Shown here: positions 3,148-52,330 of the stretch, piece by piece
Layout of the letters: each line of letters begins with the position of its first letter
How positions within the stretch are numbered: the first letter of the stretch is position 1
DNA from: Intestinibaculum porci
GTDB taxonomy: Bacteria; Bacillota_I; Bacilli_A; Erysipelotrichales; Coprobacillaceae
DNA: 64,000 nt
Assembly (NCBI RefSeq): GCF_003925875.1
Contig: NZ_AP019309.1
Location: forward strand, 2,852,001-2,916,000
Direction: 5' to 3'
The notes under the pieces: generated by a model
The model's input: the letters and a program-made list of their open reading frames with translations, nothing else
Database searches by the model: none
What the model was told of the DNA's origin: nothing
Made by a program: the position numbers and the translations under genes

Positions 3148-3400
3148 ATATGAATAAGCTTGAGTTTACTGACTGTTATTCTTGATCTAACTGTTTCTCT
3201 TGTTTATCTTAGCTTTTGCCCACTATACCAGATTCTAGACCTTTGATGTTTCTCTGATCTTATCCTTATATAGTGTTTGCAGGAAGTCTTACTAATCTTA
3301 ATTAATAAGTCTTCTCTTTGCTTTTGATTGTATGCGGTTTTCAAGGGTCTTCCTTCTCTGCTAAGCAGAGAAAACCGAAAAGAAACACTCATTTCTCCCT

Positions 3401-4927
<1,527 letters not shown>

Positions 4928-47287: not shown

Positions 47288-48049
47288 CTACTCATAATTA
47301 TGATTAAAATAGTCGCTTAAAGGCGTCCCTTGCTGATAGGCCTGAATTATTTCCTCAATCGCTTTTGCGCCATCGTTGACAGCCTGCTGATAACGCTTTG
47401 CCAGCAAAGTGATATCCTCGGCCATAACAGGATCAGGCTTTTTCATAATGAACATTTCTGAGAAACTGCCGATATGCAAGGCACGAATCAAACTTGATAG
47501 CATTTTTCTCAATAAGAGGCTATGCCCGTAAAGCAGGCGATTGAGTTTACGAAAAGTGCGAATACACGTATGAATAATCGCCGCTTCCACACCTAAGATC
47601 CGGCCGATGCGCTGACATGTTGCGGCATCGTCAGGGAAAGTCTGGGCAACTGTTTTTCGCCGCGTCGGATAGACTTCCATAAAATGCATATCGAGTTCAC
47701 GTTCTATTGCAAAATGTCCAAAATGCTTCTCTTTGACAAGCTGATTAATAAGGGGATGACAGGCATGATCCAAGCTGTAATGACAAGCAAATCCCAGCAG
47801 ATACACCAGACTCTCCTCATCTTGCATATGCGTAATCGCATCAGCAAAAAAGGGCTTAGCCTTTGCTTCATGAAGCATCCCGCCGCGACCATTAATCAGG
47901 TTCTTCTTAGTAGGATGATAATAAAACAAGAGATCTGGTCCCTGGAGACCTAAATAAAACATCTCCTGATGCTGCTGAATAAACTGCTTGTATGGTGATA
48001 TATGCATGACATCATCGCCAAAACACTGATGGGTAAAACTTGCTGGCAT
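47288..48049 (-). CDS. Zinc-dependent phospholipase C-like protein
   Basis: 253 aa from the second ATG (48049), which is better spaced from AAAGGA than the ATG at 48055. Histidine and aspartate residues of the Zn_dep_PLPC fold are visible: THQCFGDDV, GLQGPDLLFYY, FACHYSLDHACHP and the HFAIERELD segment. No signal peptide is seen. Related proteins in Bacillota are uncharacterised, so true phospholipase activity is not established. Just downstream, in gene order, is the small membrane protein. Confidence 0.82.
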   Translation of the reverse strand: MPASFTHQCFGDDVMHISPYKQFIQQHQEMFYLGLQGPDLLFYYHPTKKNLINGRGGMLHEAKAKPFFADAITHMQDEESLVYLLGFACHYSLDHACHPLINQLVKEKHFGHFAIERELDMHFMEVYPTRRKTVAQTFPDDAATCQRIGRILGVEAAIIHTCIRTFRKLNRLLYGHSLLLRKMLSSLIRALHIGSFSEMFIMKKPDPVMAEDITLLAKRYQQAVNDGAKAIEEIIQAYQQGTPLSDYFNHNYE

Positions 48050-48095
48050 AGACATTTTCCTTTCATTTTTTCATTATAATTCTCAAGCTGTAATA

Positions 48096-48203
48096 ATCAA
48101 GACAAAGAACTGAAAAAAGCTTCCGCAGAAGCTTTTTTAAACAAGTTTGACAATCAATAAGACAACTAACAGACCAACCACGGCAGTGATCGCCACTAAC
48201 GCG
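48096..48203. repeat. Left copy of a 108-bp target-site duplication
   Basis: Identical over 108 bases to 50232-50339, with no mismatch. It contains a copy of the GH3 gene terminator and the last 67 bp of that gene (48137-48203), now cut off from the rest. The duplication flanks the IS1634-type element. Confidence 0.95.
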
Positions 48204-48241
48204 GGTATTTTACAGTTGGACAACCTCATATTTTAAATTAT

Positions 48242-48268
48242 ACGCTTTAAAAAAGCGTTTTTTTGTCA
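48242..48268 (+). terminator. Terminator at the left end of the IS
   Basis: Hairpin ACGCTTT/AAAGCGT followed by eight T on the plus strand, upstream of the transposase promoter. It would stop outside transcription from entering the transposase gene. The TATAAT box of the transposase is at 48311-48316. Confidence 0.65.
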
Positions 48269-48335
48269 ACTTTTTCCATTTTTAATCTCGTAATGTTCCA
48301 TAATGTATGTTATAATGGTTTGGGAGAGGTTACAT

Positions 48336-50156
48336 ATGGCTAAACGTTTAAAATCAACCAAATCTAAAAACTCTGAATCATTCTATGTTATCGATGACTT
48401 CTATGATCCTAACACTAAAAAGAAATCTACCTTCGTAGCTGAAAAGCTGGGCAATATCAGGACTCTTATGGAAAAGTATCATACCGATTCCCGGGATGAA
48501 GTAATGAGGCAGCTTCAGCTCTATGTTGATGGACTAAGACAAAAAGACAGTGAGGACAAGGCAGACGTCAAACTAATCCTCAGTCAGGCTGATTTAATAG
48601 AAAAGGACAAGGAAAATCTCTTTAACATCGGATACATGTACATAAGAAACATATTATGCTCATTGGGCATTAAGGATATCTGCAAGGAGATATCAGACCA
48701 GTACAATTTTCAATACAATTTAGCGAGCATTATTAACGATCTTGTATCCGCTAGGGTTATTTATCCTTCATCAAAGCTGTCTACGTACAAATCAACTAAT
48801 AAATTTCTCGACTTGTCCGATTATAAGCTGGCAGATGTTTACCGTTCCCTCAAAGTTCTTTCTGAGCAAAGGTATTTCATTGAAAAAATGCTTTATAAAA
48901 ACAGCTCACAGCTTTTCAAAAAGAACACAGCGGTTCTCTACTATGACTGCACAAATTTCTATTTTGAGATTGAAGAAGAGGATGACTACAGAAAATACGG
49001 AAAAAGCAAGGAAAACAGACCAAATCCTATTGTGCAGTATGGTCTATTTATGGATGCAGATGCTCTCCCTTTAGCTGATTATGTCTTCCAGGGCAATATG
49101 AATGAGCAAAAATCCATGAGAGAGTTAGAGGCTATAGTTGAAAGAGACTTTGCAGTTTCAAAGTTTGTTGTCTGTGCTGATGCCGGACTCAACGGCTGGG
49201 AAAATAAGGTATATAATGACATGAAGAAAAATGGTGCCTATATTGTCACCCAGCCAATCAAGAAAATGTCAAAAGTAATGAAGGAATGGGCAATATCACC
49301 AGAAGGATGGAAGCTTGAGGGATATCCTGGAACTTTTAATCTTAATGATCTGGCTGATAGAGAAACTATAGAAATTGAAGGCGTAAAGAAGAAGATAAAA
49401 GATCTTGTTTTCTTCAAAAACAAATGGGAAAAAAGAACCAAAAAATCCGAATCATCAGGCGGTAAATACACTCTTGAAGAAAACTATATAGTTACTTATT
49501 CAAGAAAATTTGCCAATTACCAAAAACATATTAGAGATAAGAAACTAGAAAGAGCGAGAAAGCTTCTTGATAACCCAGGAAAACTTACAAAAACCAACCA
49601 ACGCGACCCACGCTATTATATTTCTAAAACATCTTTCACGAAGAACGGTGAAGTAGCTAGTGATGCAATTTATACAATTGATGAAAATAAGATTGCAGAA
49701 GAAGAAAAATACGATGGCTTTTATGCTGTAACTACCGATCTTGAAGACAGTGATCTCTCATTAATTATTAGCGCAAACAAACAGCGCTGGGAGATTGAAG
49801 AAAACTTTGAAATAATGAAAAGCGAACTAAAAACAAGACCTATGTATGTATCAAAAGAACATTCAATCAACGGTCACCTGTTAATATGCTTCATTGCCCT
49901 GCTGGTTTATCGTTTGCTTGAAAAAAAGTATATGAATGAAAAATATACGTGTGCAGAATTATTTGATACACTTCGCGATCTTAACCTAACCTATATAAAT
50001 GGAACAAACTATATTCCATCCTTTAAAAGGACAGAAATCGTGGATGACCTAGCTGAAGTTTTTGGATTTCAGCCCTCACGAAAAATAATTACTCAAAAAT
50101 ATTTAAAAAAATTTCAAAGGGTAGTAAATTCTAAAAAAAGTACGAAACTGATTTGA
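48336..50156 (+). CDS. IS1634-family DDE transposase
   Basis: 606 aa from the ATG at 48336 with GGGAGAGG upstream; the longer frame begins inside the promoter. It has the IS4-superfamily features of IS1634: YYDCTNFYFE (first Asp), VCADAGLNG (second Asp), then a long insertion and RWEIEENFEIMKSEL with the Glu and YREK-like region. The C-terminus (ARPMYV-like RPMYVSKEHSINGHLLICF) fits the family. Uninterrupted, so likely active. Confidence 0.95.
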   Translation: MAKRLKSTKSKNSESFYVIDDFYDPNTKKKSTFVAEKLGNIRTLMEKYHTDSRDEVMRQLQLYVDGLRQKDSEDKADVKLILSQADLIEKDKENLFNIGYMYIRNILCSLGIKDICKEISDQYNFQYNLASIINDLVSARVIYPSSKLSTYKSTNKFLDLSDYKLADVYRSLKVLSEQRYFIEKMLYKNSSQLFKKNTAVLYYDCTNFYFEIEEEDDYRKYGKSKENRPNPIVQYGLFMDADALPLADYVFQGNMNEQKSMRELEAIVERDFAVSKFVVCADAGLNGWENKVYNDMKKNGAYIVTQPIKKMSKVMKEWAISPEGWKLEGYPGTFNLNDLADRETIEIEGVKKKIKDLVFFKNKWEKRTKKSESSGGKYTLEENYIVTYSRKFANYQKHIRDKKLERARKLLDNPGKLTKTNQRDPRYYISKTSFTKNGEVASDAIYTIDENKIAEEEKYDGFYAVTTDLEDSDLSLIISANKQRWEIEENFEIMKSELKTRPMYVSKEHSINGHLLICFIALLVYRLLEKKYMNEKYTCAELFDTLRDLNLTYINGTNYIPSFKRTEIVDDLAEVFGFQPSRKIITQKYLKKFQRVVNSKKSTKLI

Positions 50157-50162
50157 ATAAAG

Positions 50163-50202
50163 AAAAGGCAAAATATATTGATGTATTCAATGTATTTTGC
50201 CT
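50163..50202 (+). terminator. Terminator after the transposase
   Basis: Arms AGGCAAAATA/TATTTTGCCT with a roughly 18-nt loop, followed by a short TTTA run. Confidence 0.7.
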
Positions 50203-50231
50203 TTATTAGCTTATCAGCTGTAAAATATGAG

Positions 50232-50339
50232 ATCAAGACAAAGAACTGAAAAAAGCTTCCGCAGAAGCTTTTTTAAACAAGTTTGACAATCAATAAGACA
50301 ACTAACAGACCAACCACGGCAGTGATCGCCACTAACGCG
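50232..50339. repeat. Right copy of the 108-bp target-site duplication
   Basis: Perfect copy of 48096-48203. It includes the functional 3' end and terminator of the GH3 gene, so the insertion left that gene intact. Confidence 0.95.
50247..50274 (-). terminator. Terminator after the GH3 gene
   Basis: Eleven-bp stem AAAAAAGCTTC/GAAGCTTTTTT with a 4-nt loop; T residues follow on the minus strand. A second copy lies in the left duplication at about 48111-48138. Confidence 0.85.
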
Positions 50340-52330
50340 AAGAGAATTTTGTTTTGTTTGCCTTCCGCAATCTGAATCAGATGCGCCTGAGCCGGCGTCA
50401 CCTGTTTACTTTCTTCCTGTAAAGGCTGCTCCTTAACCAGCGCTTTGATTTTTAAACCATAACCGCGTTTATAAACAATCGTATCGCTAAAACGTGATGT
50501 TGTCTGATTAAAAGCTGGAACATTGACCGGTAAGACGCCCTGGATCGTATGCGCGCCAAAGAGGCATTCCACCCCGGCCACAATATTAGGACCATACGCC
50601 TTTTCTGGTTTGAGGGCTTCGGTTGGATCCATCCCGGCATTGCCATAAACGGCGATCATGCCCTGCGCTTCTTTATATGAAGCAACATCATAAGGTTTTG
50701 CAATACTCATGATAATTCCCTTCTTTTTGGCGGCCGCCGCAATTTTCATCGCTAAAGCAGGTACGCGCGTCGCATAGTTAGAGGCATTCATTTGGGTATT
50801 CGTGACAATCTCGGAATTACAAATGACAATCGAGGCTTTCGCAATCTTTTGGGAAAGTTCGCTTTCCGACGTCTGCGCGCTATAGCGCATCACCTCATAG
50901 TGACTCTCTAAAGCAATCACCTTATTAGCCGTTAAGCGGCGCATCCCTAGTTTAATAGCTGGAATCTCATTATCATAAGGGGTTAAGAATAACACGTGAT
51001 CATTCTTACTTAGTTTAATTGGTAAAACATTGCCTTCATTTTTAAGACATGTGACAGCTTTATTGGTGATCTCTGCTTCAATATTGTGATGCGCATCAGA
51101 TCCCACCTGTTTTAAAGCTGAGGCTGGATACTGACTCGCTGCATAATTAAGAATCTTTTTCTTTTCCTTCAGCGTTAAAATACGTTTCACCGAAGCATCA
51201 ATCGTGGCAACATCAATCAGTTTACGATTGACTTCACTTTCGAGTTCATTGAGTAAAGTCGCAAATTTACTCATATCTTTCGTCGTATGCACTTCCATTG
51301 GCATCACCAGTAAATCATTACCGGCATTAATAGCCTTCGTCGCCGCATTGAGTTCACTTAAGTTCTCACTGATTGCGGACATATTAAGCGCATCGGTCGC
51401 CACTACGCCCTGATAGCCTAAACGCTGACGTAAGACGACATTGACCATCGTTTTCGATAAAGAGGCCGGCGTATTTATATAAGTTCCTTTTTTGGTAATG
51501 ATTTTATACGGATCAATACTCGGGTAACAAATATGTCCCGTCATCACCATATCCACGCCATTTTTAATAGCTTCCTGATAAGGCAGTAGTTCGCTTTGCA
51601 TAAGACTTTGTAAACCTTTATTCGTCACAATTGGCAAGCCGCTATGGGAATCCGTGGCAGTATCGCCATGACCTGGGAAATGTTTCACACTCGCGATCAC
51701 GCCAGTGCTATCGATCCCTTTAATCATTGCCGTACCATATTTTGCGACCGTCTTGGCATCATCAGAGAAGCTGCGTAAGCCGATCACCGGATTATTCGCA
51801 TTATTGTTTATATCGACCACCGGCGCAAAATCGGTATTAATCCCTAAGGCTTTTAATTCTTCGCCCATCACTTTGCCAGCTGCAGTGGCCTTTTGCGGAT
51901 CGTTTGTGGCAGCGGTGGCCATATTGCCGGGCATCGCACAGCCGATCTTTAACCGATTGACAATCCCGCCTTCCTGATCGGTACCAATGATCAGTGGAAT
52001 TTTATTGGTGCTTTTTAACGCAGCCGCCTGCAGATCCTTCGTCAACTTAAGGGTTTGTTCTTTCCCCTGGATATTCTCACCAAAGAGAATGACCCCGCCA
52101 AAATCATATTGTGATAAGAGACTGCTGACATCAGTATTCATTTCTGTAAAGTTCTTATTATTCCACGTTCTGAAGTCAACGACCATCATCTGCGCCAGTT
52201 TCTGTTTAAGCGTCATTTTAGATATGATCGTATCAACTGAGGACGCGGCGGACACAACGGTCACGTTAGACGCTAACATCATCAGTGAGACAAGAAACAT
52301 ACCCATTTTCTTTATTCTCATTTTTTTCAC
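50273..52330 (-). CDS. Secreted GH3 beta-N-acetylhexosaminidase (NagZ-like)
   Basis: 685 aa. A signal peptide (ending VSAASS, about residue 30) is followed by a GH3 barrel with the NagZ features IIGTDQEGGIVNRL, NTDFAPVVDIN and KHFPGHGDTATDSH, the last holding the catalytic His of these glycosidases, and VVATDALNMSAI around the nucleophile Asp. A second alpha/beta domain follows. The C-terminus is a membrane helix (KILFALVAITAVVG...LIVKLV), so it is anchored outside the cell. It likely trims N-acetylglucosamine from peptidoglycan or host glycans. Confidence 0.92.
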   Translation of the reverse strand: MKKMRIKKMGMFLVSLMMLASNVTVVSAASSVDTIISKMTLKQKLAQMMVVDFRTWNNKNFTEMNTDVSSLLSQYDFGGVILFGENIQGKEQTLKLTKDLQAAALKSTNKIPLIIGTDQEGGIVNRLKIGCAMPGNMATAATNDPQKATAAGKVMGEELKALGINTDFAPVVDINNNANNPVIGLRSFSDDAKTVAKYGTAMIKGIDSTGVIASVKHFPGHGDTATDSHSGLPIVTNKGLQSLMQSELLPYQEAIKNGVDMVMTGHICYPSIDPYKIITKKGTYINTPASLSKTMVNVVLRQRLGYQGVVATDALNMSAISENLSELNAATKAINAGNDLLVMPMEVHTTKDMSKFATLLNELESEVNRKLIDVATIDASVKRILTLKEKKKILNYAASQYPASALKQVGSDAHHNIEAEITNKAVTCLKNEGNVLPIKLSKNDHVLFLTPYDNEIPAIKLGMRRLTANKVIALESHYEVMRYSAQTSESELSQKIAKASIVICNSEIVTNTQMNASNYATRVPALAMKIAAAAKKKGIIMSIAKPYDVASYKEAQGMIAVYGNAGMDPTEALKPEKAYGPNIVAGVECLFGAHTIQGVLPVNVPAFNQTTSRFSDTIVYKRGYGLKIKALVKEQPLQEESKQVTPAQAHLIQIAEGKQNKILFALVAITAVVGLLVVLLIVKLV

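Follow-up and report, generated by a model that had tools for sequence, protein, structure and literature searches.

Insertion sequences of the IS1634-family clade represented in the window (the whole 64,000-nucleotide stretch of Intestinibaculum porci DNA analysed here) join their two ends to the target in unequal ways. As read from the insertion sites, one end usually meets the template strand at the downstream border of a sigma-70-type -10 box, in promoters that are predicted, and the other is joined to the opposite strand 26–831 bp upstream, almost without a sequence rule. The stretch between the two joints is duplicated and carries the promoter with it, thus leaving both the native promoter and the downstream gene whole. 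These features would be explained by a Tn5-like cut-and-paste insertion sequence with one joint at the -10 edge and the other near-random, for which an RNA-polymerase open complex and DNA synthesis are the proposed intermediates; we place the probability of this overall explanation at about 0.7. The preliminary description of the window overlooked both the inequality of the ends and the joining of one of them at promoters.

The window element and its target duplication

The ends of the element (Table 1) were fixed by aligning nine full copies within the 3.21-Mb single-contig genome, i.e., the window copy and eight further ones with DNA identities of 99–100%, 89%, or 71–72%. This same-genome comparison set the first bases of the window element as CGGGTATTTTACAG, with the nine copies starting as CGGG[TG]ATTTTACAG and ending as CTGTAAAATAT[GA][GA]G. 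The flanking direct repeats (48096–48203 and 50232–50339) are identical across 108 bp, as was first described; however, the element itself starts with the CG at 48202–48203, such that 106 bp of target duplication are certain and the "perfect 108-bp" figure includes two shared bases. The match of this CG to the right copy may be due to chance or to a weak preference for C at that position; the likelihood of a 100-bp identity falling exactly at the element ends by chance is negligible. That the insertion is recent, as originally suggested, is plausible given the identical repeats and the 98.8–99.7% identity of two other copies of the element. The duplication holds the last 67 bp (50273–50339) of the glycoside hydrolase family 3 (GH3) gene along with its terminator hairpin (50249–50274), and the gene itself is intact, bearing out the initial account of a host gene that stayed complete despite an insertion in its 3' end.

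The joint of the window copy (48095/48096) lies inside the -35 of the likelier predicted promoter, that of the phospholipase-domain gene, and its joint hexamer (CTTGAT) has 3/6 matches to the -10 motif. As a test for membership in the class, we propose that the joint should abut the downstream side of TATAAT, with a -35 at a spacing of 16–18 bp; the clade conforms to this pattern, whereas the window copy does not. With respect to predicted promoters, the window copy is thus an atypical hit for the promoter-targeting class, and statements about the class rest on the other copies.

Table 1. Features of the window around the insertion sequence
Feature	Position	Strand	Remarks
Zinc-dependent phospholipase C domain gene	47288-48055	-	start 40 bp from joint
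Predicted promoter of phospholipase-domain gene	48073-48100	-	TTGATT-16-TATAAT
Left copy of target duplication	48096-48201		106 bp
IS1634-family insertion sequence	48202-50231	+	2030 bp; ends set from nine full copies in genome
Left terminal inverted repeat	48202-48215	+	CGGGTATTTTACAG
Transposase gene	48336-50156	+	606 aa; DDE residues D204, D282, E488; Tn5-like fold predicted
18-bp inverted repeat just inside right end	50164-50204		probable two-way terminator
Right terminal inverted repeat	50218-50231	-	CTGTAAAATATGAG as read on + strand
Right copy of target duplication	50232-50337		starts at the specific ("first") joint
GH3 gene, intact	50273-52330	-	last 67 bp and terminator inside duplication

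Transposase and family assignment

The initial assignment of the element to the IS1634 type was confirmed by a transposase match to NCBIfam NF033559 that scored 326 bits (cut-off 100), with a further match to Pfam DDE_Tnp_1. Across an alignment of 26 diverse relatives, D204, D282, and E488 do not vary, the glutamate being preceded by a long spacer; R484, E488, and K495 are present, with N in place of Y, leaving the YREK motif incomplete. The family rule for terminal repeats (an initial C and YT at positions 7–8; PMC2266710) is followed by CGGGTATTTTACAG and CTCATATTTTACAG, and the 2030-bp length places the element at the upper edge of the 1500–2000 bp given for the IS1634 family. In duplication length, the element resembles IS1634 and IS1549, the type elements, and departs from the 5–6 bp figure for the family.

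The predicted structure of the transposase (mean pLDDT 81) finds its best fold match in the Tn5 transposase (VIA Z 13.1, 328 residues, rmsd 7.7), in a list headed by the Tn5, piggyBac, and ISCth4 transposases. A PDB sequence search with the transposase returned no relative at E<=1. Relatives were recovered from genome contigs by a scan with the alignment; a scan with the single protein gave no confirmed relative. In the G034 copies (e.g., L124-L127 and L179-L182), one or more in-frame TAA stops occur inside the transposase match in all matched copies, although these are flanked by long repeats and several of them are nearly identical; this transposase is possibly expressed through frameshifting.

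Duplication length across the family

Comparison with other copies in the genome, as had been proposed at the outset, revealed long duplications in all 16 IS1634-family copies (91–694 bp), which belong to several sub-types, including a 609-bp repeat with five mismatches. Among relatives of the same class, a repeat of at least 20 bp was found in 80/110 copies examined, with many of the others located at contig ends. For the GTDB loci, mostly from Clostridia, a long repeat was present in 38/77 and absent from 17 others whose flanks were adequate. When pooled without the mycoplasmas (n=104), lengths span 26–831 bp with a median of 117 bp, in a continuous and roughly log-normal distribution; a 10.5-bp helical periodicity was sought in this set and not seen. 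Long duplications are the rule in the clade of the window element.

Further afield, long repeats were detected in Persicobacter (33 bp), Aliarcobacter (682 bp), Rhodococcus (104 bp), and Mycobacterium riyadhense (610 bp), and the mycoplasma relatives (loci L206-L212, L227, and L311-L327) have duplications of 18–253 bp. Four plasmid copies, from Microbacterium, Streptomyces, Alicyclobacillus, and Geobacillus, have a duplication of 5 bp; in the transposase tree, these occupy two places outside the Bacilli/Clostridia/mycoplasma clade. The original statement that long and variable duplications typify relatives of IS1634 thus holds for this genome, but not for most described members, as 5–6 bp is usual among those listed (PMC2266710). 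That same summary gives IS1549 and IS1634 as the long-repeat exceptions, at 8–514 bp, and the mechanism of long duplication is stated to be unknown, with no mechanistic model offered (PMC2266710). Two full G084 copies (L107 and L108) have no long repeat; in these, as in the 17 GTDB loci, the repeat may have been lost through recombination or the duplication may have been short. A flank swap between the G084 copies without repeats was looked for and not found.

That the long repeats pre-existed the insertions, or arose from later duplication or recombination between copies, would accommodate those multi-copy elements that have no repeats, as if rearranged (the G084 copies). It would not account for the repeats that exactly abut the element ends in 16/16 family copies in this genome, and it is at odds with the empty site of a relative, making it extremely improbable. 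The latter site is the counterpart, in the related strain OBRC5-5, of a Lachnoanaerobaculum gingivalis copy (L256); its flanks are contiguous (92–93% identity) and the 112-bp stretch occurs once, a result that pertains to the relative's copy and not to that of the window, for which no sufficiently close strain was present among the collections searched.

The right-end joint and the -10 box

At the right-end joint, i.e., on the downstream side of the transposase gene, the first target bases are ATTATA, the reverse complement of TATAAT. Base counts for the main group of the discovery set (Bacilli) were A46 T42 T33 A32 T42 A41 of 48 joints, and two groups whose elements end in other sequences show the motif shifted by one base; the joint hexamer of an independent set, composed mostly of Clostridia, gave A33 T30 T29 A23 T31 A32 of 35. 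Across the pooled 106 sites, the mean number of TATAAT matches was 4.88/6 at the joint, compared to <=3.1 at any other offset, and at least 5/6 matches were present at 73% of joints vs 1.1% of background positions (the remaining 27% having fewer than 5/6). The second joint of these 106 sites has no -10 motif, and a search there for a sequence rule yielded only a weak C preference. Joints of the mycoplasma relatives are A-rich and do not carry the -10 motif; promoter targeting is thus not required for long duplications, and variable length and promoter preference are separable traits.

Such joint sequences could also be produced by a transposase that merely favours the AT-rich word ATTATA, with transcription being irrelevant and selection retaining those insertions that spare genes. 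The joints are AT-rich, in-gene insertions would be lost, and the mycoplasma relatives do favour A-rich joints. What makes this reading improbable is the sequence context beyond the word itself, as judged against controls consisting of other occurrences of the hexamer within the same loci. In the discovery set, the -35 match peaks at a spacer of 17 (4.85 vs 3.98 in same-hexamer controls); in the independent set, spacers of 17 and 18 give -35 scores of 4.43 and 3.69, respectively, vs ~2.4, with a mean score of 6.03 vs 3.96 in controls (p<5e-5). An extended TG is enriched approximately fourfold in both sets (17/71 vs 43/738 controls in the discovery set, and 10/35 vs 38/596 in the independent one). 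Both the -35 at its exact spacing of 17–18 and the TG extension fall outside the word and exceed the same-word controls. Even when the same-hexamer controls were drawn from intergenic sequence upstream of genes, the -35 excess persisted (5.40 vs 4.55, p=0.001).

Selection for harmless sites would likewise leave unexplained the base-exact alignment to the -10 box, as well as the orientation of adjacent genes: the nearest gene points away from the joint in 78/87 cases, with a sense:convergent ratio of 78:9 vs 206:145 in controls (p=9e-9). An intergenic position with a sense gene downstream was found for 74% of sites vs 16% of same-hexamer controls, and the median distance from joint to start codon was 45 bp in the discovery set and 62 bp in the pooled one.

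In the I. porci genome, the same -10 box (TATTATAATGG) has been used by two different IS1634-family elements, which are nested there (L187, G000:C1:957400-970000); copies of the motif lie at 4094, 6307, and 8681 of L187 on the reverse strand, and the predicted promoter is now present in three copies. On the Ligilactobacillus salivarius plasmid NZ_CP089852.1 (L331, ~3355-3368), an IS1634-family copy lies at the erm(C) leader promoter, hit at TGCTATAAT; the site of this copy reads TGTGCTATAAT and precedes the leader by 28 bp. The duplication at this site is 13 bp, such that the native -35 has been replaced by the left end of the element.

Proposed mechanism of insertion

In DDE transposition, the transferred strands are joined to target 5' ends. 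As applied to the clade, this places the specific end on the template strand at approximately -7, within the stretch melted by RNA polymerase, suggesting use of the open complex. The 3' end freed at this first cut would then point back through the -10 and -35, from which position it could prime displacement synthesis away from the promoter, with a host polymerase copying the stretch that becomes duplicated. After this first transfer, the second end would join the other strand anywhere upstream; the second strand transfer would thus not be locked at a fixed distance, affording a duplication of any length. In this full form, i.e., with a large IS1634-family clade recognising promoters opened by RNA polymerase, joining an end to the exposed template strand at ~-7, priming synthesis from the freed strand, and placing the second end arbitrarily, the model is put forward tentatively, at somewhat short of even odds. 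The reported binding of a family transposase to the replication sliding clamp (PMC4549789) fits the model, but in the 26-relative alignment the clade does not conserve the corresponding clamp motif, a point against the model.

Alternatively, promoter targeting may be real with the long duplication stemming from looping, in which two distant sites are captured at once instead of through sequential transfers separated by synthesis. The same products would be expected from such capture, and a nearly random second joint would be in keeping with it. Two weak arguments speak against looping, namely that duplication lengths have no 10.5-bp periodicity and that lengths of only 13–30 bp occur; we consider it rather unlikely.

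Relation to known systems

IS1634 from Mycoplasma mycoides and IS1549 from Mycobacterium smegmatis share with the window clade both the transposase family and long variable repeats. They differ from it in their terminal sequences, and the first joint at -10 boxes seen in the window clade is absent from the mycoplasma relatives tested. ISGka5 from Geobacillus and an Acidiphilium element belong to the same family and, like the window element, have ends that start with C; their duplications are 6 bp in each case (PMC8024623 and PMC4549789, respectively). With respect to fold, the window transposase is predicted to be closest to that of Tn5/IS50 (IS4 family), from which it is set apart by an extra N-terminal β-domain (residues 1–75) outside the Tn5-aligned part. 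Tn5 duplications are 9 bp. Membership in the IS4 family itself, which entails a full YREK motif and a duplication of ~9–12 bp, does not suit the window element, given its incomplete YREK and 106-bp duplication.

For most bacterial insertion sequences, target choice is considered to be short or loosely defined. In yeast, Ty3 integrates beside the transcription start via the polymerase machinery, thereby sparing the gene; this involves RNA polymerase III and a 5-bp duplication. The likeness to Ty3 is one of analogy only, as that element is unrelated to the window insertion sequence. Base-exact -10 targeting would constitute a bacterial counterpart to the promoter-seeking elements of eukaryotes, and it offers a concrete first step towards the puzzle of duplication length. 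The full open-complex model, if true, would account for the long variable duplications, for which an explanation has been wanting since the 1990s, as well as for the sparing of adjacent genes. Insertion sites would also become predictable, with genes left intact while copies of promoters are moved around, and the position of a promoter would be naturally recorded at every insertion site. The family itself and the long repeats of a few members were already known; base-exact promoter targeting and so wide an occurrence of long repeats are apparently new, with no earlier report of either in the IS1634 family found in the literature searched, the coverage of which was incomplete.

Terminal hairpins and orientation to replication

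Strong hairpins were detected at the right end of 41/70 elements, compared to 8/70 for shuffled sequences. The idea that the right-end terminator guards against the captured promoter was considered and dropped, as hairpins are found at the left end too (36/70). Finally, the transposase gene opposes the replication fork in 34/49 copies from eight complete genomes (p=0.009). Replication as a separate cause of this orientation was also set aside, as most genes run with the fork and promoter targeting alone thus predicts a transposase gene that runs against it.
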